A model generated the notes under the pieces. The model was not told the origin of the DNA and searched no databases. It saw nothing but the letters and a program-made list of their open reading frames with translations. From Firmicutes bacterium HGW-Firmicutes-14 (GTDB taxonomy: Bacteria > Bacillota > Thermincolia > Thermincolales > UBA2595), in the NCBI GenBank assembly GCA_002840275.1, contig PHAB01000005.1, positions 1 through 64,000 on the forward strand: 64,000 nucleotides of DNA, read 5' to 3'. Positions 119 to 58,036 of the stretch are shown piece after piece. Numbering within the stretch: position 1 is the first letter of the stretch; each line of letters begins with the position of its first letter. Position numbers and translations under genes: made by a program.

Positions 119-203
119 CTGAAAAAGGCAAACTTAACGAAAGTTAAGGGCGCAAAGCCATGGGTCTAAGGTATAGTACTATGATTGCCAGGTTGCCGCA
201 TGA
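119..203 (+). promoter_or_regulatory. class I cyclic-di-GMP riboswitch (GEMM-I), copy 1
   Basis: The aptamer core is recognisable: AAAGGCAAAC, a GAAA-capped P2 stem, GCGCAAAGCCATGGGTCTAA, then GATTGCCAGGTTGCCG. A TATAAT-like -10 lies at 89-94, but I see no good -35. A terminator hairpin follows at 215-254, suggesting transcriptional control of the six-gene operon beginning at 269. GEMM-I RNAs bind c-di-GMP; a subclass prefers cGAMP, and I did not resolve which applies. The core is nearly identical to a second copy at 48636-48716. Confidence 0.93.
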
Positions 204-214
204 AGCGTAAACCA

Positions 215-254
215 ATAGACCCTTTGCTAAGACAAAGGGTCTATCACTATTTTT
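215..254 (+). terminator. riboswitch expression-platform terminator
   Basis: A perfect 12-bp stem (215-226 with 233-244) with a 6-nt loop is followed by CACTATTTTT. It lies between the aptamer and the ribosome-binding site of the HD-GYP gene, the usual place for a ligand-controlled intrinsic terminator. Whether the ligand turns transcription on or off cannot be read from the sequence alone. Confidence 0.85.
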
Positions 255-268
255 GGAGAGGGTGCTGG

Positions 269-2386
269 ATGAACAATTGCAATAACAATAACAATAGCAA
301 TAGCAACGGTGTAACTCTCTATGATTATGGCAGAATTGTATTTGCCATAATTGTACCGGTTTTAAGCAGAATATATGGAAAGATAAACAACGTTTATTTA
401 GTTTTTTACACACTTATTTTTATTTACAGTGTTGGATTGCCGATTCTGCGAAGACAGATTCCTGCTGTAAAGATTTATACTAAGTTTTTTATCATCACCG
501 ATACTATTTTAATTTTTTTACTGCTTTTCTTAATTCAAAATAACAGCACCTTCAAATTTTTATACCTTTTCCAGATTCTTTATTTTCTTATTGTTGTATT
601 GCTGCTTTTCAAAGCCTGGGAAAAAGAACGGAAAGCTAACCGGGAAATTATAAATAAATTGACCAAGAGAGTGCAAAATGTCAGAGATACTTACGAAATC
701 AGTAAATTCCTGAGGTTTCCTGAAACTAATCTAAATTTTATTGAGGAGAAAATTGAAGCTTACAAAAAAACCTTTGCCAAGTCACTGTTCGCATTGGAAA
801 GACTGCAGGATAATGACACTGTCCGGGACAATAATCTGCAGGATAAGCAGGAAAAGCTGCTTAACACTGTAAGCGGTTTACTGGCCAGGTCACTCAGGGC
901 GGAAACGTGTCTAATTGCATTATTTGACGGTGAAGAAAAAATTACGGTAAAAGGGTCCTTCGGTGACAGACACTTTGATGTGGGAACTACACTTGACCAC
1001 CGTGACGGAATCGTTTACTTAACAAAAATGCGTAATCACCCGACTATTGCAGACCAGCATTCTCCCAAAGAATTAAAGAAGTTTAACGGTATCAAATTTA
1101 ATAATTTAATTAGCTTACCCATTAATTCCGGCACAAATATCCTGGGTATTATTACCCTAATCAACAAACGGACCGAAGATTTTGATAGTTATGAAAGATT
1201 TAATACAGAGGATCAACTGGTTTTAATATCACTTGCTAATCAAATAAGTTTAGTCATTGAAAACCAGTTATTGTTTAAGGTACAAAAAGACACTTTCGTG
1301 ACGACTATCCGTTCCCTGGTTCAAGCTCTTGACACCAGAGACCCATACACCAGAGGGCACTCAGAACAGGTAGCCCAATATGCGGTAATGATTGCCAAAG
1401 AAATGGGATTGTCAGAAATTGAAATAGACAATATTCGTTTTGCCGGATTGCTGCATGATATTGGTAAAATCGGTATTCCCGAAAAATTGTTGAATAAACC
1501 CGGTAAGCTTACCCTCAATGAATTTAATCAAATTAAGATGCATCCGTACATCAGCGCCCAGATATTAAAACCTATCCCTTTATGTACATCTCTGCTGCCT
1601 TTTATTTACCATCACCACGAGCGATGGGACGGCAAGGGTTACCCGGATGGACTGAAGGGTGAAGAAATTCCGCTGGGCGCCAGGATTCTCGCCGTTGCGG
1701 ATTCCTTTGATGCTATGATCGCTGACCGTGTATACCGCCAGGGAAAGGGAAAGGATGTAGCAGTTAACGAGTTGGTTAAATATGCTGCTTGTCAGTTCGA
1801 TCCTATGGTTGTGGATGCGTTTTTAACCGCTGTTGAAAAACAAATGTTTGAAGAAAAAGTAGATTCTGTTTGGAAATTTGACAGTCTGAGCAATGTTTTC
1901 AGGGATGTGCTGAATGCGGTGACCAGTGGTCAGCTGGTAATTTCGGATGACAATGAAATAAACAAGTTAAAGCAGGAAGGAGAGATATTGGGAGAAGCTG
2001 TTGTGAAAAGGCCGGAGGACATTGGTAAGACTCGCTTGGCTGTTAAGGAGGTTTTACAAAAATACAAGGTTCCGGAACAGGAGATTAACAAGATTTTACT
2101 ATGTATCTCCGAGGTAACAACTAATATGTTAAAACATGCTTCCGGCGGGAGAATAATGTGGTGCCTTTGTAATGATGGCAAAATCCGCTTTGTAGCTGAA
2201 GATTCCGGACCGGGACTCAGGCTCAGCGATTTACCGAAAGCTACCCTGGTAAAAGGCCCAAAAAAGAAAAAGGCATTGGGATTTACCGTTTTACTTGAAT
2301 TATTAAACAAAGTTTACTTAAAAACAAATGATTATGGAACAACACTGGTACTGGAACAGAGATTTGACCAAAGTCATGCTGAATAA
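269..2386 (+). CDS. membrane GAF/HD-GYP phosphodiesterase fused to RsbW-like ATPase
   Basis: The start chosen is ATG 269, preceded by GGAGAGGG at 255-262; an in-frame ATG at 185 lies inside the riboswitch and is not credible. The 705-residue product has an Asn-rich N-terminus, about four membrane segments (to about residue 120), a coiled linker, a GAF-like domain (about 200-340) and an HD-GYP domain with H364, H396-D397 and GYP at 457-459. HD-GYP proteins usually hydrolyse c-di-GMP. Residues about 575-700 form a GHKL ATPase of the RsbW/SpoIIAB type, with E615 and N619 of the N-box. Fusing an anti-sigma-type kinase to HD-GYP is unusual. First gene of a six-gene operon behind a c-di-GMP riboswitch, so a feedback role is plausible. 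Confidence 0.9.
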   Translation: MNNCNNNNNSNSNGVTLYDYGRIVFAIIVPVLSRIYGKINNVYLVFYTLIFIYSVGLPILRRQIPAVKIYTKFFIITDTILIFLLLFLIQNNSTFKFLYLFQILYFLIVVLLLFKAWEKERKANREIINKLTKRVQNVRDTYEISKFLRFPETNLNFIEEKIEAYKKTFAKSLFALERLQDNDTVRDNNLQDKQEKLLNTVSGLLARSLRAETCLIALFDGEEKITVKGSFGDRHFDVGTTLDHRDGIVYLTKMRNHPTIADQHSPKELKKFNGIKFNNLISLPINSGTNILGIITLINKRTEDFDSYERFNTEDQLVLISLANQISLVIENQLLFKVQKDTFVTTIRSLVQALDTRDPYTRGHSEQVAQYAVMIAKEMGLSEIEIDNIRFAGLLHDIGKIGIPEKLLNKPGKLTLNEFNQIKMHPYISAQILKPIPLCTSLLPFIYHHHERWDGKGYPDGLKGEEIPLGARILAVADSFDAMIADRVYRQGKGKDVAVNELVKYAACQFDPMVVDAFLTAVEKQMFEEKVDSVWKFDSLSNVFRDVLNAVTSGQLVISDDNEINKLKQEGEILGEAVVKRPEDIGKTRLAVKEVLQKYKVPEQEINKILLCISEVTTNMLKHASGGRIMWCLCNDGKIRFVAEDSGPGLRLSDLPKATLVKGPKKKKALGFTVLLELLNKVYLKTNDYGTTLVLEQRFDQSHAE

Positions 2387-2401
2387 GTTGAGGTGAATGT
2401 T

Positions 2402-3475
2402 ATGCGGGTTATTCCGGTAGATAAAGTAAAACCGGGGATGGTGACAGACCGGGCGGTAATCGGCCCGGGGGGTGAGGTTCTGTTAAGCCGGGGCGTTAAA
2501 ATTAACGGGTATTACCTAAAACGTTTGAAAGAAATCGGAATCCCGGCAGTATACATCAGGGATCATAACATCGGCAATGTGGAATACGATGAGGTGATAT
2601 CTGAACAAACCCGTCAGGAAGCTTTAAGAGTATCCAAGGATGTAATGGACAGTATCCGGTTAAGTTCGGATTTCGATCTGAAGAAGGTTAACAAAATAGT
2701 CGATGAATTGATTTCCGAACTATTGGTTTCCAAAGACCTTTTGGTAGCTCTGGTTGATATGCGGGCAGCTAATGATACAAGTTTTTATCACGGTGTAAAT
2801 ACTACCGTTTTATCGGTTATTACCGGAATCGCCCTGGGCTATGATATTGAAAAGCTCGGTCAGCTGGCATGCGGCGCATTGTTTCACGATATCGGAATAA
2901 TCATGCTGCCTCCGGAGCTGCTGAAAAGACAAGCGCCTTTGTCAGCGGAAGAAAATGAAAAAATTATGAAACATCCCGAGCTGGGATTTGAGATTTTGAG
3001 GAAAAAAGAAGGGGTAAGCCTGATGTCAGCCCATGTTGCCCTGCAGCATCATGAAAAATTTGACGGCACCGGTTATCCCAGGGGGTTAACCGGTGATGAA
3101 ATCAGTGAATTTGCCAGGTTAGTAGCAATAACCGCTATCTATGATGATCTTGCCTCTGTTGGGTCTGAAACAAGCCGGGTTTTACCGCACCAAGCCATTG
3201 AATATCTTACAATCCATAGCGGCAAATGGTTTGATCCCGAAATTTTGCAGGTGTTTTTCGGGACTATTGCGGTATTTCCGCTGGGAACGCCAGTTCTTTT
3301 AAATTCCGGAGAAACAGCTTTGGTCACCAGGGTCAATAAAAAATTTCCAACCCGGCCGGTGGTCAGAGTATTTAAAAACCGGACCGGGGCAAAGGTATTT
3401 CCTCCTTTCGAGATAGATTTGGCTAAAAATCCGGCGTACTTTATCCAAAAAATTTTGGCAAACGATGAGCCATAA
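2402..3475 (+). CDS. HD-GYP domain protein (DUF3391-like N-terminus)
   Basis: ATG 2402 follows AGGTGA at 2391-2396, so it is preferred over the in-frame GTG at 2393. The 357-residue soluble protein starts with a motif (IPVDKVKPGM) typical of the short N-terminal domain preceding many HD-GYP domains. The HD-GYP domain follows, with the HD motif in LFHDIGIIML and a GTGYPRGL version of GYP. Expected activity is hydrolysis of c-di-GMP to GMP, but the first metal-ligand region (FYHGVN) differs from the usual TxxHS pattern, so catalysis is not certain. It sits 15 bases after the preceding HD-GYP gene, giving two HD-GYP proteins in one c-di-GMP-controlled operon. Confidence 0.88.
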   Translation: MRVIPVDKVKPGMVTDRAVIGPGGEVLLSRGVKINGYYLKRLKEIGIPAVYIRDHNIGNVEYDEVISEQTRQEALRVSKDVMDSIRLSSDFDLKKVNKIVDELISELLVSKDLLVALVDMRAANDTSFYHGVNTTVLSVITGIALGYDIEKLGQLACGALFHDIGIIMLPPELLKRQAPLSAEENEKIMKHPELGFEILRKKEGVSLMSAHVALQHHEKFDGTGYPRGLTGDEISEFARLVAITAIYDDLASVGSETSRVLPHQAIEYLTIHSGKWFDPEILQVFFGTIAVFPLGTPVLLNSGETALVTRVNKKFPTRPVVRVFKNRTGAKVFPPFEIDLAKNPAYFIQKILANDEP

Positions 3476-3508
3476 GCAAGCCGAAATTTTGCGAATGGAG
3501 GGGTTAAG

Positions 3509-4702
3509 GTGGATGTAGTAAATGATAAGCCGGAAAAATTAAACATTTTATATCTGGTGTGTTCGACCTTGTTTCGTGAGAATAATGAAGCTGCTTATAC
3601 AACTATTTGTAAGGAAATATGCAAGGAATTGAAGATACACTGCTGCAGCATCTGGCTCAAAGTAACAAACGGTCAGCAAAGGTTAGGTTATTTTGAAAAA
3701 GATGGCAGTCCGGATGATTTGACCCTCTCCAACCTTGATTTTGAAATAAGCAAACATATCATGGAACAAAAAGCGCCGGTTATTAAGGATCTTCCTTTAA
3801 AGGCAATGGGTATCCCGATTTTATACGACAATTCGGTTGTCGGTAGTATTACATGTTATTATCAGGACCGGAATAATGACGGTTTACCGGAAGTGATAAA
3901 AGATATAGCCACAGAGCTGGCTTTTGGGGTTGAACAATTCAAATATAATTTTACAACCGCCAGGCAGCAAAATTTACGTAAGGAACTGGACACTGCCCGT
4001 GATATTCAACAGAGTTTGTTACCAAACCAAATGCCAAAAATCCAGGGCATTACGCTGGGGGCAAGAACCATTCCCACCCATGAAACCAGCGGTGATTATT
4101 ACGATTTTATAATTACTGATCACCAGAATTTGGGGATTGTCATCGGTGATGTGATGGGGAAAGGAGTGCCGGCTGCGTTGTTTATGGCTATTGCCAGAAC
4201 TGTCACCAGGTCGGTTGTCAGGCACGACCTGGCGCCTAACGCGGCTTTGTCGGAGATTAACAGCAGTTTATTTCCGGACCTGTCAACCCAGGGTATGTTT
4301 TTAACCATGTTTTACGCTTTATATAATCCATTACAGAAAGCGTTGCTTTATGCCAGCGCCGGGCATAATCCGCCGCTGATTTTGGAAGACAGTTCAGAGA
4401 AAATAAGCTTTTTGAAAAGCCGGGGTATTTTTATCGGCGGACGTCCCAAATTATCGTATGCCCTGCAGACAAGGAAACTGGGTCCGGGTGATATCGTGCT
4501 TTTTTATACCGATGGACTGACCGAAGCCCAAAACTTCCGGGGGGAACAATTCGGCATTGAAAAGGTAGCGGAAGTATTAAAAGGATACCGTTACTGCGAA
4601 GTACCTGCCATAATTGATTGCTTGAGTATGCGGGTGATGCAGTTTATCGGTGACCGGGAACAAAGTGATGATATAACCTTTGTGGTTTTGAAGGCTGAAT
4701 AG
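3509..4702 (+). CDS. GAF-domain SpoIIE/RsbU-type PP2C phosphatase
   Basis: Starts at GTG 3509 with GGAGGGG at 3497-3503. The 397-residue product has an N-terminal GAF-like sensor (about 10-150), a short coiled linker (ARDIQQSLLPNQMP) typical of RsbU/RsbP-type enzymes, and a SpoIIE phosphatase domain. Metal-binding aspartates are visible in SGDYYDF, IGDVMGKG, DGLTEAQN and SDDITFVV. Such enzymes dephosphorylate a STAS anti-sigma-factor antagonist; a STAS gene lies two genes downstream (6759) and a kinase follows it (7099), completing a partner switch. Confidence 0.92.
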   Translation: MDVVNDKPEKLNILYLVCSTLFRENNEAAYTTICKEICKELKIHCCSIWLKVTNGQQRLGYFEKDGSPDDLTLSNLDFEISKHIMEQKAPVIKDLPLKAMGIPILYDNSVVGSITCYYQDRNNDGLPEVIKDIATELAFGVEQFKYNFTTARQQNLRKELDTARDIQQSLLPNQMPKIQGITLGARTIPTHETSGDYYDFIITDHQNLGIVIGDVMGKGVPAALFMAIARTVTRSVVRHDLAPNAALSEINSSLFPDLSTQGMFLTMFYALYNPLQKALLYASAGHNPPLILEDSSEKISFLKSRGIFIGGRPKLSYALQTRKLGPGDIVLFYTDGLTEAQNFRGEQFGIEKVAEVLKGYRYCEVPAIIDCLSMRVMQFIGDREQSDDITFVVLKAE

Positions 4703-4718
4703 AGAGGTGTTGGTCTGG

Positions 4719-6743
4719 ATGGCGAAAAACGGCTTTATTACTATTAAAGCAGATTCAATGAAAGAAGCGTTGGAAAAAGCCCGGATGCAGTTGAACACCT
4801 CAAAAGAAAACATAGAGGTAAAGGTGGTAGCTAAGGAAAAACACGGTTTTATTTTTCAGAAAGAAACGATCATAATAAAGGCCCGGAGAAAAGAACCGGC
4901 TTTGGAACAGTTGGTGGAAGATGTACTGAGTGGTCCGAAGGTTTACTCGGAGAATATTGAAAGTGTCGCGGACGGGTCGGTTGAAATTACTGAAGGAAAA
5001 ATAGTAGTAAAAAACCCACAATACGGCGGGAAGTATCCTAGTATTGAGCCGGGAGAAAATACTGCGGTGATTATAAACGGAGAACCAGTCTCAGAAGCAA
5101 CTATTATCAGCGCCGAGGATGATGTGAAAGTTAAGGCATTTAATCAGGAACCATACATTGAATTTGCTGTGGAAATTACTGATGATAAAATGAATGCCTT
5201 TTTGGTAGCGAAACGGCGGTTTGGCAGGGAATTTCGGGTTAAGGACTGCCCATCATGTTTAAACGCCAGGGTAAGAACCGAGACAGTTAAAGATGTCCCG
5301 CCACGAAAAATCTCTCCCCGCGAAGTTATCCAATTGTTAAAGGATAAGGGTATTATTTACGGTATCAATGAATCGGCTATGTCAAGGGTTGTGGAAAACA
5401 ATACTGAAGGTACGGTTAAGGTCTTGATTGCCGCGGGACAACCTCCGGAACCCAGTAAGGACGCTGTGATCGAATATGTTTTTGAAAAGAAGGAGGCATC
5501 TTCCGCTGAGACCCCTAACGCTTACAGGAAAATAGCAATTAAGTCTGTTGAGGTTGGCGAAGTACTGGCAGTAAAAAGCTCACCACAGGAAGGGGAAGCC
5601 GGCACAAACTTATTCGGTGAATCTATTGTCCCAAAACCGCCCGAGGATACTAAGATAATAATCGGTGAAGGGGTCAAACTGGTTAAAAATGAAACCGTGG
5701 CGGTTGCCGCTATCACCGGACGGCCTGTGTTGGAAGGAAGGAAGATTAAGATATTAAAAGTTCTGCCCATTTACACGGTAGACGGAGATGTGGATATAAG
5801 TGTCGGTAACATCAATTTTAAGGGAGATGTTTTGGTTTATGGCAATGTATTGGAAGGATTTCGGCTTTGGGCAGGGGGAGACATTACAGTCCTCGGGAAT
5901 GTCATCCAGGCTAAACTGAATGCCGGGGGGAATATCATTATTCATAATAATGCTCTCAGCAGCGAGCTTAACGCCGGAGGTACGGTCCTGATTTATAAAA
6001 GGTTGATACCGGATTTGAAGCATATATCTTCATTGACTCACAATCTATTGAAAGCCATGCAGTTATTAAAGACCAACCGTTCTTTCAAAATCAACACCCC
6101 GCAACAGGGAGAAGGACAACTCATACAGTTGCTTATTGACAATAAATTTAACATGATCCCAAAGTTGATTAAAGAGGTATTTGAAATTATTAATAACAGC
6201 GAGAGCGCCCTGATACCCGAAGTGATAGAAGCTATGAACCAATTGCAGAAACTGACCGGTCTTAATCCTTTAAGAATTCAAAAGGGACAAGAGGTATTTG
6301 ATATCATAAGGACACTTGAAGTGATTGTAGGGAAGTTACAGGAGAACTGTGAATTAAACGAACCTTCCAATGTAACTGCAAATTATATCCAGAACTCCGC
6401 AGTTAAAGCGAGTGGTGATATAATAATTACCGGCCAGGGTGTCATTACTTCCGAATTATTGGCCGGAGGCGATATTAATGTCAACGGCCAGAGAGCTGTA
6501 GTCAGAGGAGGGAAACTTAGCGCCGGTGGAACAATAAGGGTGAATGAACTGGGGTCTAATGCAGACGTAATTTGTATTGTCAAATTAAGTGAAGGGTCTG
6601 TATTGGAAGCGCAGTTGGTGCATCCGGCAGTTACCATTGAATCCGGCAGCGGTAAATACCAATTTAACGATTTATCAAGATGTGTCAGGGCATATATTTC
6701 TCCACAAAAGAAGTTGGAAATTGAGAAATTAAAAGCTAAATAA
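4719..6743 (+). CDS. fapA: FapA / DUF342 beta-helix protein
   Basis: ATG 4719 is preceded by GAGAGGTG; the upstream GTG 4707 lies within that site. The 674-residue protein has an N-terminal Jag/KH-like segment (about 1-55), a FapA N-terminal domain, and a DUF342 region rich in short Gly-Asp/Asn repeats (DVLVYGNVLEGF, AGGDITVLGNV, AGGDINVNGQ) characteristic of a beta-helix. A helical insertion of about 130 residues (about 430-560) interrupts it. FapA family members are linked to flagellar assembly and polarity in Vibrio; the role in Firmicutes is not established. Its place inside a partner-switch operon suggests that surface or motility functions are an output, which is inference. Confidence 0.85.
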   Translation: MAKNGFITIKADSMKEALEKARMQLNTSKENIEVKVVAKEKHGFIFQKETIIIKARRKEPALEQLVEDVLSGPKVYSENIESVADGSVEITEGKIVVKNPQYGGKYPSIEPGENTAVIINGEPVSEATIISAEDDVKVKAFNQEPYIEFAVEITDDKMNAFLVAKRRFGREFRVKDCPSCLNARVRTETVKDVPPRKISPREVIQLLKDKGIIYGINESAMSRVVENNTEGTVKVLIAAGQPPEPSKDAVIEYVFEKKEASSAETPNAYRKIAIKSVEVGEVLAVKSSPQEGEAGTNLFGESIVPKPPEDTKIIIGEGVKLVKNETVAVAAITGRPVLEGRKIKILKVLPIYTVDGDVDISVGNINFKGDVLVYGNVLEGFRLWAGGDITVLGNVIQAKLNAGGNIIIHNNALSSELNAGGTVLIYKRLIPDLKHISSLTHNLLKAMQLLKTNRSFKINTPQQGEGQLIQLLIDNKFNMIPKLIKEVFEIINNSESALIPEVIEAMNQLQKLTGLNPLRIQKGQEVFDIIRTLEVIVGKLQENCELNEPSNVTANYIQNSAVKASGDIIITGQGVITSELLAGGDINVNGQRAVVRGGKLSAGGTIRVNELGSNADVICIVKLSEGSVLEAQLVHPAVTIESGSGKYQFNDLSRCVRAYISPQKKLEIEKLKAK

Positions 6744-6758
6744 ATGGGGGATTATCAG

Positions 6759-7079
6759 ATGTTTGAAGTTATAACTTGTCACAATGAAAGTATAAGTTGT
6801 TTGAAATTATCAGGTGAACTGGATATTTCAACCGTGGAAAAATTCCGGTTGGGTATTGAAAGTATCCCGGAAACATCAACCGAGGTTCACTTGGATTTTT
6901 CCTGTGTTGAGTTTGTAGATTCGACCAGTATAGGCAATCTTGTGCAGGTTATGAATCAAATGAGAGCACAAGGTGTAAAAGTAATGGTAAAAAGGATTCC
7001 CAAGGAAATTTATGAAGTTTTTGACCTCTTGGGGATACCGGAATTAATAGGGGAAGAATATTTCGAATGCCTAATCTGA
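6759..7079 (+). CDS. STAS-domain anti-sigma factor antagonist
   Basis: ATG 6759 is favoured because GGGGG lies 8 bases upstream; an in-frame ATG at 6744 would overlap that site. The 106-residue protein is one STAS domain with SGELDIST near the start and FVDSTSIG around residue 55, the region that carries the phosphorylated Ser/Thr in SpoIIAA/RsbV. In partner switching the dephosphorylated form binds the kinase and releases the sigma factor or other target. It sits directly between FapA and the RsbW-like kinase gene. No sigma factor gene follows, so the target is unknown. Confidence 0.9.
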   Translation: MFEVITCHNESISCLKLSGELDISTVEKFRLGIESIPETSTEVHLDFSCVEFVDSTSIGNLVQVMNQMRAQGVKVMVKRIPKEIYEVFDLLGIPELIGEEYFECLI

Positions 7080-7098
7080 TATCTGAAGGTGAGGCAGC

Positions 7099-7665
7099 AT
7101 GAAGATGGCAAAATTCAAAGCAAAAGTTAATCGAAATATCATAAGTTGCAGAAAAAAGCAACAAAGAGAGGCAATCTTTAAAGTATACAAGGATGTAATT
7201 TATGCCGTTACCCAGGGGAAGTTTTTACTGGTTAACGTCCATGAAATATACTGCTATACCGACGAGGGTGTGAAATTAGCGGCAGTTAACATTTTTACAA
7301 ATAAGGATGTTGGGCTGGCGAGACAGATTACCAGACAGGTAGTAAAAGATGTGTTCCCCGAATACGATAAAATTCAAAAGATACTCCTTTGTGTTTCTGA
7401 GGCGGCTACGAACATCCTGAAACATGCAGGGCCTGGACAACTGATTATTAAGAAAACGTCTGATGATTCACTCAGGTTTATATTTAACGACCATGGACCG
7501 GGTATAGATATTGAGTACCTTCCTTCAATGCTGTTTTACAAAGGATTCTCCACGAAAACTTCTCTGGGGTATGGATTTAACCTTATATACAGTATTGTTG
7601 ACAAAATGATTTTGTCATCGTCCCCAAATGGCACCACTGTCGCTTTTGATATTATACTTGAATGA
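7099..7665 (+). CDS. RsbW/SpoIIAB-like serine kinase (anti-sigma type)
   Basis: ATG 7099 follows GGTGAGG. The 188-residue product has a GHKL ATPase core (about 70-188): the N-box SEAATNILKH, then DHGPG, a glycine-rich lid (LGYGFNLI) and a C-terminal GTT strand. The N-terminal 60 residues (VYKDVIYAVTQGK) resemble the linker ahead of the ATPase domain in the first gene of the operon (VFRDVLNAVTSGQ), implying an internal duplication. Expected to phosphorylate the STAS protein encoded 20 bases upstream. Last gene of the operon; a gap of about 110 bases follows. Confidence 0.9.
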   Translation: MKMAKFKAKVNRNIISCRKKQQREAIFKVYKDVIYAVTQGKFLLVNVHEIYCYTDEGVKLAAVNIFTNKDVGLARQITRQVVKDVFPEYDKIQKILLCVSEAATNILKHAGPGQLIIKKTSDDSLRFIFNDHGPGIDIEYLPSMLFYKGFSTKTSLGYGFNLIYSIVDKMILSSSPNGTTVAFDIILE

Positions 7666-7772: not shown

Positions 7773-8264
7773 GTGAAGCCAGCAAAAAAAATTCATTTGG
7801 TATCCTGTCCCTTTAAAGAAGTACACCGGTTTACAAGATGTCCAAACAAATGTTTTAAACCTGGGTGTATGAAACAAACTTTATTTGAATTACGGGTAAT
7901 TGAATTAGTTAATGCTGAAAGAAATAAAGCAGGGCTCAGGTCCTTAAAACATGACAAAAAGTTATCGGAGATGGCCCGGGAAAAGGCGAGGGACATGGTT
8001 GTTCACCGCTATTTTTCTCATAAGTCGCCGAATTACGGATCCCCTTTTAATATGATGAAAAAATTTGGTATCTCCTACCATTGTGCGGGAGAAAACATTG
8101 CTTCCGGTTATAATAGTCCGGAAACTGTTATACAGGGATGGATGAATTCGCCCGGCCACCGGGCCAACATAATGAAGCCTCTTTATTTGCATATCGGAGT
8201 GGGTTATTTCTATACTAACATTGGATTATACAACCATTATTGGACCCAGGAATTTATTCTATAA
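7773..8264 (+). CDS. CAP/SCP-domain protein (YkwD-like) with Cys-rich N-terminus
   Basis: Starts at GTG 7773 after AGGAG at 7761-7765; the overlapping ATG at 7771 is followed at once by a stop. The 163-residue protein has a CAP domain (about 43-163) with HRYFSHKSP, AGENIA and WMNSPGHRANIM, all hallmarks of bacterial YkwD-type proteins. There is no signal peptide. Instead the first 35 residues carry four cysteines (SCPF, RCPNKCF, PGC), which could bind metal or cross-link. Some Bacillus relatives are spore or surface proteins; the function here is unproven. It ends in a terminator shared with the convergent methyltransferase gene. Confidence 0.85.
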   Translation: MKPAKKIHLVSCPFKEVHRFTRCPNKCFKPGCMKQTLFELRVIELVNAERNKAGLRSLKHDKKLSEMAREKARDMVVHRYFSHKSPNYGSPFNMMKKFGISYHCAGENIASGYNSPETVIQGWMNSPGHRANIMKPLYLHIGVGYFYTNIGLYNHYWTQEFIL

Positions 8265-34126: not shown

Positions 34127-34215
34127 CGGAACGCCATTGTTACCGGGCGCTTTTATCCTGCATGTTAATTATTGACATTTGCTCAGAAGTTCAATATAAT
34201 ATTAATAATTAAATA

Positions 34216-34405
34216 AATTGGTTTTAGGTGCCCTTAAATGGGAGAATAGGGAACCGGGTGTAAATCCCGGACGGACCCGCCACTGTAAAGTTTGAGCCGA
34301 TACCATGCCACTCCGTATAAAGGGGGAAGGGGTATTTAGGCAATGACACTGAGTCAGGAGACCTGCCTATAACCTGTTGGTGCAGCCTCGGGGTGAGGTG
34401 AACTG
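34216..34405 (+). promoter_or_regulatory. cobalamin riboswitch
   Basis: The conserved elements of a B12 riboswitch occur in order: GGTGCCC...GGGAATAGGG-type P3 region, GAACCGGGTG, the core CCGCCACTGTAA, and a 3' segment with GTCAGGAGACCTGCC. A terminator follows at 34419-34456. It should repress the downstream dehydrogenase / TrpD-like / 70-residue gene set when adenosyl- or other cobalamin is abundant. Confidence 0.93.
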
Positions 34406-48609: not shown

Positions 48610-48635
48610 TACAATTATTATATATATAGGATTCT

Positions 48636-48716
48636 GAATAAAGGCAAACTCGCTGAAAGGCGGGGGCGCAAAGCCATGGGTCTAAGGGTTTTATACTATG
48701 ATTGCCAGGCTGCCGG
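48636..48716 (+). promoter_or_regulatory. class I cyclic-di-GMP riboswitch (GEMM-I), copy 2
   Basis: It has the same core as the element at 119-203: AAAGGCAAAC, a P2 stem with GAAA loop (GCTGAAAGGC), GCGCAAAGCCATGGGTCTAA, and GATTGCCAGGCTGCCGG. A terminator follows at 48730-48763. It precedes a dCache chemoreceptor gene at 48811, so c-di-GMP controls production of a receptor. Confidence 0.93.
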
Positions 48717-48729
48717 AATAGGTTTTTTG

Positions 48730-48810: not shown

Positions 48811-51195
48811 ATGTTTAAGTGGGGTATTGCTAAAAAGCTTGTAACATCGGTTTTAGTTGCATTTTTCTTTGTTTTTACAATTACCGGATTTTTTGTATAC
48901 AGTAGAGTAAAGAAACAGATTGAACTCTCAACACAGCTTGAAAATAAAAACTTATCACAGAAGCTGGCCAAACAGGTTGAGGAATCACTGAATCAGGGGA
49001 TGACAATAGCGCGAACTTTAGCCAAAACAGTAGAGACAGATATTCGCGGGCCACGGCACCTTTCCAGAGACGATGTTATTCAAATCCTTTATACCGTTTT
49101 GGACAGCAACCCGGATCTTTTAGGGACTTATGTATGCTTTGAGCCCAACGCTTTTGATGACAGGGATAATCAATACAAATATGCCAATTATCACGATGCT
49201 ACCGGGAGGTTTATCCCGTATGTGAATAAACTTACCGGCAGCATGGCTATTGAGCCTCTTGTGGATTATGAAACAGAGGGAGCGGGAGATTACTACCTTT
49301 TACCCAGGAAAACAGGCCGGGAGCAAATTTTGGAGCCTTATCTGTATCAGGGAGTTCTATTAACTTCGCTGGTGGTACCGATAAAAGATTCCCGGGGCAA
49401 TTTTGTGGGTATAGCCGGAGTGGATGTGGGTCTTACTCAATTAGATTCAATGATATCCCAAATAAAGGTCCTGGAATCGGGGAACGCTTCTTTGGTAAGC
49501 AATAACGGGACTTATCTGTCTGATTCCAATAAAATAATGGTTGGATATTCCTCTCTGAAAGATATCAATGCAAAGGGTATAAGAAACGCATTTGATACCG
49601 GCCAGGCTTTTATTGTAGATAACCCAAACGAAGAAGATATTCAAAACATTGAACAGATTGAATCCCAAACGACTCCTCAAATGCAGGAAACGTACAGCCA
49701 ATTGACTGCTGAGGTGCTGGCAGGCAATTCGGGGATGATAGAATTACTGGATAGAGGCAGTAAAACTCTAAAATGGACATTTTATGAGCCGGTATTGATT
49801 GCCGGGACAAGCACTCCCTGGAGTCTCCTGGTTAATGTGCCTCCTGATGAAGCTCTTATTCCGTTAAATGCGGTTCTGAGAGACCTTGTTATTATAGCTT
49901 TAATAGCAATCATAGGTATATCGATAGCATTGATTTTGTTAATCCGGCGCTTAATGAGACCTATTGGTATGACTGTAAATATGCTGAAAGATATCGCCCA
50001 GGGTGAAGGTGACCTGACAAAAAGGATTACTATAACCTCAAAAGATGAATTCGGTGAACTTGCAGATTGGTTTAACCAGTTTATCGAAAAAATTGCTAAA
50101 ATGATAAATAAGATAAAATCTACCGGTGAATTAGTGGCTGCCAACAGTGAACAAATATCTGCGAATTCCATGGAGGCTTCTAAAGCAACTCAAAATGTGG
50201 CTGCCGCAATTGAACAGGTGGCTAAAGGTTCAGCAGAGCAATCACGCGGTGTTGCTGACACTGAAAAAATTGTAAGCCAAGTCACACAGGCTATTGAACA
50301 AATTGCCCTGGGCGCTCAGGAACAAAGTCGCAATGTTTTATCTACTACTTCACTGGTAAATGAGATGTCGGTAAGAATCAGTGAAGTGGCTGAAGGGATG
50401 CAGTCAGTGAAACAAATATCAGAACAGAACGGGGTCACAGCGGAAGATGGCGGTAAGGCCGTTGAACAGACGGTTAACGGAATGATCCAGGTAAAGAATG
50501 CAGTATTTGAAACAGCACAAAGACTCCATGAGCTTGGAGAACGGTCTCAGAAAATAGGAGAAATTATTGAGGTTATAGATGATATATCGGAACAGACCAA
50601 CCTGCTGGCTCTTAATGCTGCAATCGAGGCGGCCCGGGCAGGAGAGCACGGCAAAGGTTTTGCGGTTGTAGCTGATGAAGTAAGAAAGCTTGCTGAAAGA
50701 GCGGGTAAAGCAACAAAGGAAATAGCTGACCTTATTACTGACATTCAACGGGGGACTGAGGTTGCAGTCAGATCAATGCAGGTGGGGACAAAGGAAGTTG
50801 AAGAGGGGGTAAATCTTGCCCAGGCAGCCGGAAAATCTCTGGATGAGATAGTAGATGGTGTAAAAATGGCAGGAGACAATGTACAGAAAATTATGGGGAT
50901 AGTTAACCAAATCTTAAATATGAGCCAGGAAGTCTCAGAGGCAGTCAGCAATGTGGCAGCAATAACACAGGAAAATACGGCTGCGACAGAGGAAATAGCG
51001 GCTTCAACAGAGCAGGTGAATACCTCGGTACAAAACATTGCAGTTGTATCTGAACAAAATGCTTCAGTAGCTGAAGAAGTATCTGCTTCTTCTGAGGAAC
51101 TGACAGCGTCAATTGAAGAAATGTCTTCATCAAGCGAACAGATGGCCAAAATGGCACACGAACTATACAGTGTGGTGGCACAGTTTAAGGTGTAG
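48811..51195 (+). CDS. dCache-domain methyl-accepting chemotaxis protein
   Basis: ATG 48811 after GAGGTGG; 794 residues. Membrane helix 1 (about 10-32), a large extracellular dCache_1 sensor (about 40-345; [30 protein letters not shown]), helix 2 (about 355-380), HAMP (about 380-435) and a long signalling domain with the tip [16 protein letters not shown]. dCache domains bind small extracellular ligands such as amino or organic acids; the ligand here is unknown. Regulated by the preceding c-di-GMP riboswitch. Confidence 0.95.
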
Positions 51196-57916: not shown

Positions 57917-57935
57917 TAAGGAAACTTAAAAACCA

Positions 57936-58023
57936 ATTAGCTGGGGGTGCCGAAAGGCTGAGAGGAGATATGCCAACCCTTGGAACCTGATTTTCCGGGT
58001 AATACCGGCGGAGGGAAGCTAAC
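57936..58023 (+). promoter_or_regulatory. TPP riboswitch (THI element)
   Basis: All conserved pieces are present: GGGGGTGCC, GGCTGAGAGGAGATA, CCCTTGGAACCTGA, CCGGGTAATACCGGCG, GGAGGGAAGCTA. A terminator follows at 58037-58066. It should shut off thiSGH when thiamine pyrophosphate is plentiful. Confidence 0.97.
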
Positions 58024-58036
58024 CTTTTTTTAGGAT

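Follow-up and report, generated by a model that had tools for sequence, protein, structure and literature searches.

The first 64,000 nucleotides (nt) of contig PHAB01000005.1 of Firmicutes bacterium HGW-Firmicutes-14 (Bacillota, Thermincolia), here called the window, open with an operon of six co-directional genes on the + strand behind a GEMM-I riboswitch for cyclic di-GMP (c-di-GMP). This operon is one version of a recurrent cassette of one phylum, in which the kinase, STAS antagonist and phosphatase of a partner switch stand together with a FapA-like protein and, at many loci, with HD-GYP proteins. It is proposed that the cassette is a partner switch whose expression is set by c-di-GMP, whose partners lie within the cassette itself and whose HD-GYP activity creates positive feedback, a reading to which we assign a probability of roughly 45%. 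The riboswitch sensing of c-di-GMP and STAS partner switching, usually studied apart, are joined in a cassette present in at least 17 families, with the riboswitch in 13 of them.

Composition of the operon

A preliminary description, made from the sequence alone, had listed the riboswitch, a terminator and six tightly spaced genes. Its gene list and coordinates proved good: the six-gene order is backed by Pfam domains (GAF–HD-GYP–HATPase, HD-GYP, PP2C, FapA-like, STAS and RsbW-like ATPase), with corrections to the start sites. The window begins at the contig end, and genes 5´ of the riboswitch lie outside the view. The features are the following.

77-102, strand not applicable: inverted repeat TGTAACAT-N10-ATGTTGCA around a TATAAT box (89-94), candidate promoter/operator
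117-200, + strand: c-di-GMP-I (GEMM-I) riboswitch aptamer (RF01051, 83.9 bits, gathering score 35, E 4.5e-15)
162-168, + strand: putative antiterminator, aptamer segment GGGUCUA, complementary to the terminator arm at 216-222
215-254, + strand: intrinsic terminator, 12-bp hairpin at 215-244 (dG -16.9) and U-rich tail to 254
269-2386, + strand: gene 1, 705 amino acids (aa), hydrophobic N-terminus, GAF, HD-GYP and RsbW-type HATPase (Pfam; Protein Data Bank (PDB) entries PmGH 4mcw and V-cGAP3 5z7c)
2402-3475, + strand: gene 2, 357 aa, degenerate HD-GYP (HD_5 1e-28; alignments)
3509-4702, + strand: gene 3, 397 aa, PP2C-type (SpoIIE-domain) serine phosphatase (PF07228, 6.8e-48)
4719-6743, + strand: gene 4, FapA/DUF342-like beta-solenoid with Jag_N (FapA_N, PF20250, 1e-32; FapA, PF03961, 4e-29; Jag_N, 2e-7)
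6759-7079, + strand: gene 5, STAS-domain antagonist with phosphosite motif DSTS (STAS 1e-15; nearest structures SpoIIAA and RsbV)
7099-7665, + strand: gene 6, 188 aa, RsbW/SpoIIAB-type ATPase (HATPase_c_2 6e-11), without the transmembrane (TM)–sensor–HAMP half of its orthologues

The product of gene 1 combines a GAF domain with an HD-GYP domain (HD_5, 7e-43) and an ATPase domain (HATPase_c_2, 2e-10). Its listed open reading frame of 733 aa opens at 185, inside the aptamer, and the likely start is the ATG at 269, after GGAGAGG; for genes 2, 4 and 5, ribosome-binding sites and orthologue starts favour ATG 2402, 4719 and 6759. The HD-GYP motifs of gene 1 are intact (HDIGK, HHERWDGKGYP and VADSFD, including the late metal-binding Asp in the alignment with PmGH), and these conserved catalytic motifs and metal ligands predict an active-type HD-GYP phosphodiesterase.

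Gene 2 had likewise been described as an HD-GYP enzyme, a claim that finds no support. Its HDxGK motif reads HDIGI, and Ala replaces the metal-binding Asp (D305 of PmGH). Both losses (HDIG[ITV]; Asp to Ala) are common to all five orthologues, including those of G002, G004, G007 and G008, with HHExxDGxGYP kept; the canonical residues persist in G001 and G131, whose gene-2-like proteins are more distant. Gene 2 probably encodes a conserved degenerate HD-GYP that serves as a binding or scaffolding protein and not as an enzyme.

The remaining genes include the three components of a partner switch. The SpoIIE domain of gene 3 (7e-48) agrees with the GAF-SpoIIE phosphatase of the preliminary description, whose GAF part was not found in gene 3 by Pfam at E 1e-3; the GAF domain of the operon sits in gene 1. 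The best PDB sequence matches of gene 3 include 6k4e (a serine phosphatase) and 3es2/3eq2, titled probable response regulator, which we take to be HsbR. Gene 5 carries a phosphorylatable Ser/Thr in its STAS motif. The structural model of gene 6 (mean predicted local distance difference test score of 80) has SpoIIAB as its best fold match (E 1e-8, TM-score 0.76 by target), followed by RsbW. The ATPase of gene 1 shares about 30% identity with gene 6, in the ATPase itself as well as in the N-terminal stretch that precedes it. The ATP-binding boxes are intact in gene 6, and in gene 1 the lid motif is two residues short (ALGF vs GLGF in orthologues). In gene 4, FapA_N and FapA score above the Pfam cut-off, and MinC and Jag-type proteins are matched weakly as well. 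Against NCBIfam, all window proteins stay below the curated cut-offs.

A recurrent cassette across the phylum

The same gene order is found behind GEMM-I in a metagenome-assembled genome labelled Thermincola ferriacetica (G002, locus L021), as the preliminary description had suggested checking, and a rearranged version lies behind GEMM-I in HGW-Firmicutes-8 (G001, locus L022). In the sister genus (G004, G007 and G008), all six genes occur in order with response-regulator genes directly upstream and no GEMM-I ahead of them, so even members of one family differ in whether they have the riboswitch.

Of 398 genomes sampled from the phylum, 46 matched a profile built on the ATPase region (A2) with E<=1e-12. 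The genes around such kinases were read at 49 loci with home-made hidden Markov models, and selected members were checked with Pfam. Kinase, STAS, PP2C and FapA genes occur within 7 kb of each other at 36 of the 49 loci, in 17 families, and a composition that had looked unique to the window is in fact widespread. FapA is the most constant partner outside the switch, present at 41 loci compared with 33 that have any HD-GYP nearby, separate or ATPase-fused. A common order elsewhere is GEMM-I, HD-GYP, TM kinase, STAS, PP2C, STAS and FapA (for instance at L138, L145 and L147).

A search with a covariance model of the aptamer found the first gene preceded by a same-strand GEMM-I element, no more than about 480 nt away, at 29 of the 49 loci, in 13 families. 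With between 1 and 21 GEMM-I elements per carrier genome, we calculate that a given 500-nt segment, read on one strand, would contain such an element with a probability of about 1 in 1000; cassette and riboswitch are therefore not associated by chance. Ten of these loci come from a single family (f14), a relatedness that cuts the number of independent events and not the family span. No relevant other Rfam riboswitch was found near nine GEMM-I-negative loci. Furthermore, GEMM-I is present in all 41 cassette genomes vs 75% of the sample, which is suggestive of a link between the cassette and GEMM-I-bearing genomes, these genomes being related. A special flagellar link was also considered and set aside as weak, FlhA being encoded in 41 of 42 cassette genomes and also in 82% of the phylum sample.

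Two further domains accompany the cassette. Of the 11 stand-alone cassette HD-GYP proteins scanned, 8 have a Spo0E-like domain at the C-terminus (PF09388, score above the cut-off), in each case in the product of the first HD-GYP gene (L124, L125, L139, L142, L145, L147, L149 and L152). It is possible that this domain links c-di-GMP to Spo0A dephosphorylation; no paper treating Spo0E and HD-GYP together was found in the open-access literature. A DUF5317 membrane protein (PF17248) is located between the cassette STAS gene or riboswitch and the HD-GYP-ATPase gene, Pfam-confirmed in L125 (10005-10556), with similar sequences at L121:9952-10506, L124:5649-6209 and L153:2074-2619.

The riboswitch and the direction of control

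The leader of the window operon contains a GEMM-I aptamer and a terminator, as first described, on the strength of an RF01051 score of 83.9 bits and a 12-bp hairpin (215-244, dG -16.9) followed by CACTATTTTT. Gating by c-di-GMP is supported by the ligand-discriminating position, which in an alignment with 20 other aptamers is G127, the equivalent of Vc2 G20 and of the c-di-GMP type. In cGAMP-type (cyclic GMP-AMP) GEMM-Ib this position is A. Three of the 20 GEMM-I elements of the host carry A there (L013, L015 and L017; C2:92007-92240, C21:108026), two of them in tandem, and the host may use both dinucleotides.

The direction of control was read from complementarity within the leaders. The terminator 5´ arm contains GGCAGC in 15 of the 29 leaders (families f14, f32, f34, f35, f91, f111 and f132), complementary over 7-10 nt to the aptamer 3´ strand GG[CU]UGCC. 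Because the ligand keeps this 3´ strand in the aptamer, the terminator arm would be freed and the terminator would form, as in an OFF switch. The window leader uses a different pair with the same OFF logic: segments 162-168 and 216-222 (GGGUCUA/UAGACCC) form seven perfect pairs, which appear in the folding of partial transcripts. With moderate confidence, c-di-GMP is predicted to turn the window operon OFF. An OFF switch combined with an active HD-GYP gives positive feedback. The preliminary description had proposed feedback, with its sign left open, through both first products; the feedback is now predicted to be positive and to run through the HD-GYP of gene 1.

The inverted repeat at 77-102 has one match in the window vs 0.24 expected by chance. 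The same repeat lies directly 5´ of the aptamer in L021 and L022 (positions 1-30 of each), and both of these contigs terminate exactly at it. As TGTAACAT-N-ATGTTACA at the -10 box, it is conserved ahead of this operon alone among the GEMM-I leaders checked, and is a candidate operator.

Sigma factors and the output of the switch

The host genome (3.65 Mb, 67 contigs, 99.96% complete) encodes two STAS-domain proteins, SpoIIAA and gene 5, and two SpoIIE-domain phosphatases above the cut-off, gene 3 and an 821-aa protein taken as SpoIIE; a third match falls below the cut-off. The clear RsbW-type ATPases are SpoIIAB, gene 1 and gene 6; one more, with a lower score, neighbours a hydrogenase-type iron-sulphur gene. 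Two factors of the SigB/F/G family score above the cut-off: one adjoins SpoIIAB (SigF) and the other, read as SigG, adjoins a second sigma gene on contig C33. This census makes the window genes the sole non-sporulation partner switch of the host, in keeping with the complete phosphatase/STAS/kinase set first described, and leaves no SigB-type target for it. There is no cognate SigB/F-type factor in the operon, and in the host genome only the two sporulation factors.

The usual output, release of a sigma factor, which had been among the suggested ones, is therefore unsupported. A classical arrangement would have the RsbW-type domain sequester a sigma factor (FliA-like, SigF or SigG), or the STAS protein bind an anti-sigma factor such as FlgM. 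SpoIIAB and RsbW are precedents within the family, as is HsbA-FlgM (PMC5085249), and a FliA-like factor is present on the flagellar contig C28. However, no sigma factor lies within the cassettes examined, the host has no SigB-type factor beyond the two of sporulation, and SigF is already served by its own SpoIIAB and SpoIIAA, all of which makes this output improbable.

The presence of FapA had also suggested an output in motility, a suggestion that rested on the name. A better FapA (247 bits) is encoded on C28 near flhA and the FliA-like gene; gene 4, which encodes an additional and divergent FapA, is not located in a flagellar gene cluster.

Proposed mechanism

The c-di-GMP-bound riboswitch most likely lets the terminator form, so that the operon would be made at low c-di-GMP. 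The STAS protein of gene 5 would act as phospho-carrier, phosphorylated by gene 6 and/or the ATPase of gene 1 and dephosphorylated by gene 3, and its phosphorylation state would decide which partner is held. Partners within the cassette are proposed because of co-conservation and the absence of a SigB-type target. The likeliest is the ATPase tail of gene 1, through which the switch would tune c-di-GMP degradation, and the FapA-like solenoid protein may be a further one. The HD-GYP of gene 1 would then lower c-di-GMP and keep the riboswitch on, a positive feedback committing the cell to low c-di-GMP, with gene 2 probably contributing as a non-catalytic HD-GYP for binding or scaffolding.

Several observations weigh against this mechanism and give room to other explanations. 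In the leader, the window antiterminator alone is not significant, seven pairs being reached in 7.6% of shuffles (p=0.076). Moreover, the window-type pairing is missing from the closest GEMM-I-bearing relatives, L021 and L022, whose terminator arm can pair with the 5´ flank of the aptamer (AUAGUU), so that an ON switch is conceivable. In that case c-di-GMP would stabilise the antiterminator and raise expression, and the HD-GYP would lower c-di-GMP again, a homeostasis by negative feedback. However, support for the flank pairing in these two leaders is weak (p 0.13-0.19), and the arrangement is the opposite one in the window as well as in 15 of the 29 leaders; we consider an ON switch quite unlikely.

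A further difficulty is that many cassettes lack the HD-GYP-ATPase fusion, which cannot then be the universal target. The switch might instead control the assembly or localisation of the FapA-like solenoid, with the HD-GYP proteins as accessory inputs that lower or read c-di-GMP. This would fit the presence of FapA at 41 of the 49 loci vs 33 with any HD-GYP, and the FapA-bearing cassettes that have no HD-GYP (L123, L133, L134, L136, L140, L141 and L143). Set against it, some kinase loci lack FapA (L059-L061 and L130), and no FapA/DUF342-STAS interaction appears in the open-access papers found. Control of a scaffold is a possibility that we hold tentatively.

Finally, the window copy itself has undergone losses, by which its switch may be altered. 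Gene 6 is shorter by about 260 residues (TM, extracellular sensor and HAMP), lost in frame, than its orthologues in L021 and elsewhere. Gene 1, relative to its orthologues, is missing one segment of about 46 residues and another of about 127 with a GAF-like region, as well as two ATP-lid residues; its in-frame losses comprise a TM stretch and a GAF. The STAS motif is DSTS, its glycine lost, whereas 60 of the 63 STAS proteins encoded close to the surveyed kinases have DSTG or DSSG. These losses, including that of the ATP-lid glycine, could mean that the window copy is decaying or rewired and is no longer an input-driven switch, as could the 17 lineage-specific changes in gene 6 vs 8 in G002. 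Yet all six frames are open, the ratios of non-synonymous to synonymous substitutions (dN/dS) against G002 are about 0.11-0.19 in all six genes, as under purifying selection, and the lineage-specific changes of genes 1-5 are about equal to those of G002. Decay is unlikely in our view, and the window copy looks derived, modified rather than dead.

Neighbouring features

The operon is followed by genes for a CAP-family protein (7773-8264) and a methyltransferase on the other strand. A second c-di-GMP-I riboswitch of the window (48633-48717, 76.7 bits) precedes a methyl-accepting chemotaxis protein of 794 aa (48811-51195), and cobalamin and thiamine pyrophosphate riboswitches lie on the + strand at 34209-34384 and 57933-58033. 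Elsewhere in the host, GEMM-I elements sit ahead of chemotaxis-receptor-like, HD-GYP and other genes; one of them (L005, C27:57715-57797) lies 49 nt 5´ of a lone HD-GYP-type gene whose start is similar to that of gene 2.

Implications

The predicted positive feedback is a concrete and measurable claim. If the output is indeed the phosphodiesterase or FapA, these bacteria operate a partner switch without a sigma factor, and it becomes possible to test directly what the large DUF342/FapA family does away from flagellar loci. A wider and more speculative proposal, which we would put forward only as a possibility, is that c-di-GMP-riboswitch partner switches form a widespread, undescribed class in which STAS acts on a phosphodiesterase and/or FapA, positive feedback makes c-di-GMP bistable and the Spo0E-like domain ties the loop to sporulation entry in several families.

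Comparison with known systems

The known systems that come nearest, SiaABCD and HsbR/A/D, drive a c-di-GMP synthase. In the SiaABCD system of Pseudomonas aeruginosa, unphosphorylated SiaC activates the cyclase SiaD (PMC8457831). Like the cassette, it combines a PP2C phosphatase, a SpoIIAB-like kinase and an antagonist, and acts on a c-di-GMP enzyme instead of a sigma factor. However, its output is the diguanylate cyclase SiaD, and no HD-GYP, FapA or riboswitch is described there. Pfam detected no GGDEF protein among the six window genes, so a cyclase output of the Sia kind is missing, and gene 3 scores 37 bits against the SiaA model, whose cut-off is 700.

The HptB-HsbR-HsbA-HsbD/FlgM system is similar in that a STAS protein binds a c-di-GMP enzyme depending on phosphorylation, as described for HsbA and HsbD in P. 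aeruginosa (PMC5085249). It differs in that its phosphatase is a response regulator, its enzyme is a cyclase and its alternative target is FlgM, with no riboswitch or FapA. Gene 3 has some of its closest relatives of solved structure in phosphatases that we presume to be of the HsbR type (3es2/3eq2). Both SiaC-SiaD and HsbA-HsbD are precedents for a STAS switch on c-di-GMP enzymes, a degrading enzyme standing here in the place of the cyclase. The phosphodiesterase RmdB of Streptomyces, linked to a sigma factor (PMC13232838), was rejected as a precedent, since it is an EAL/GGDEF protein and does not belong to a cassette of this type.

SpoIIAA/SpoIIAB/SpoIIE-SigF and RsbV/RsbW/RsbU-SigB of Bacillus share the same three protein folds, SpoIIAB being the best structural match of gene 6. 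In contrast to them, the cassette has no cognate sigma factor, includes a FapA partner and is under riboswitch control, and its ATPase domains have an additional region at the N-terminus, together with a fusion to TM-HAMP sensors or to HD-GYP. Its leader resembles known GEMM-I (RF01051) regulons, in which a canonical aptamer lies ahead of a terminator, as in the window.

The open-access literature searched contained no report of GEMM-I ahead of a partner-switching cassette, no paper combining HD-GYP with "partner switching" and nothing relevant on DUF342 with SpoIIE or STAS; nor did it describe a system of the same composition, in line with the preliminary description. The cassette, whose composition we found undescribed in that literature, is nevertheless built from known parts and appears to work like the known partner switches.

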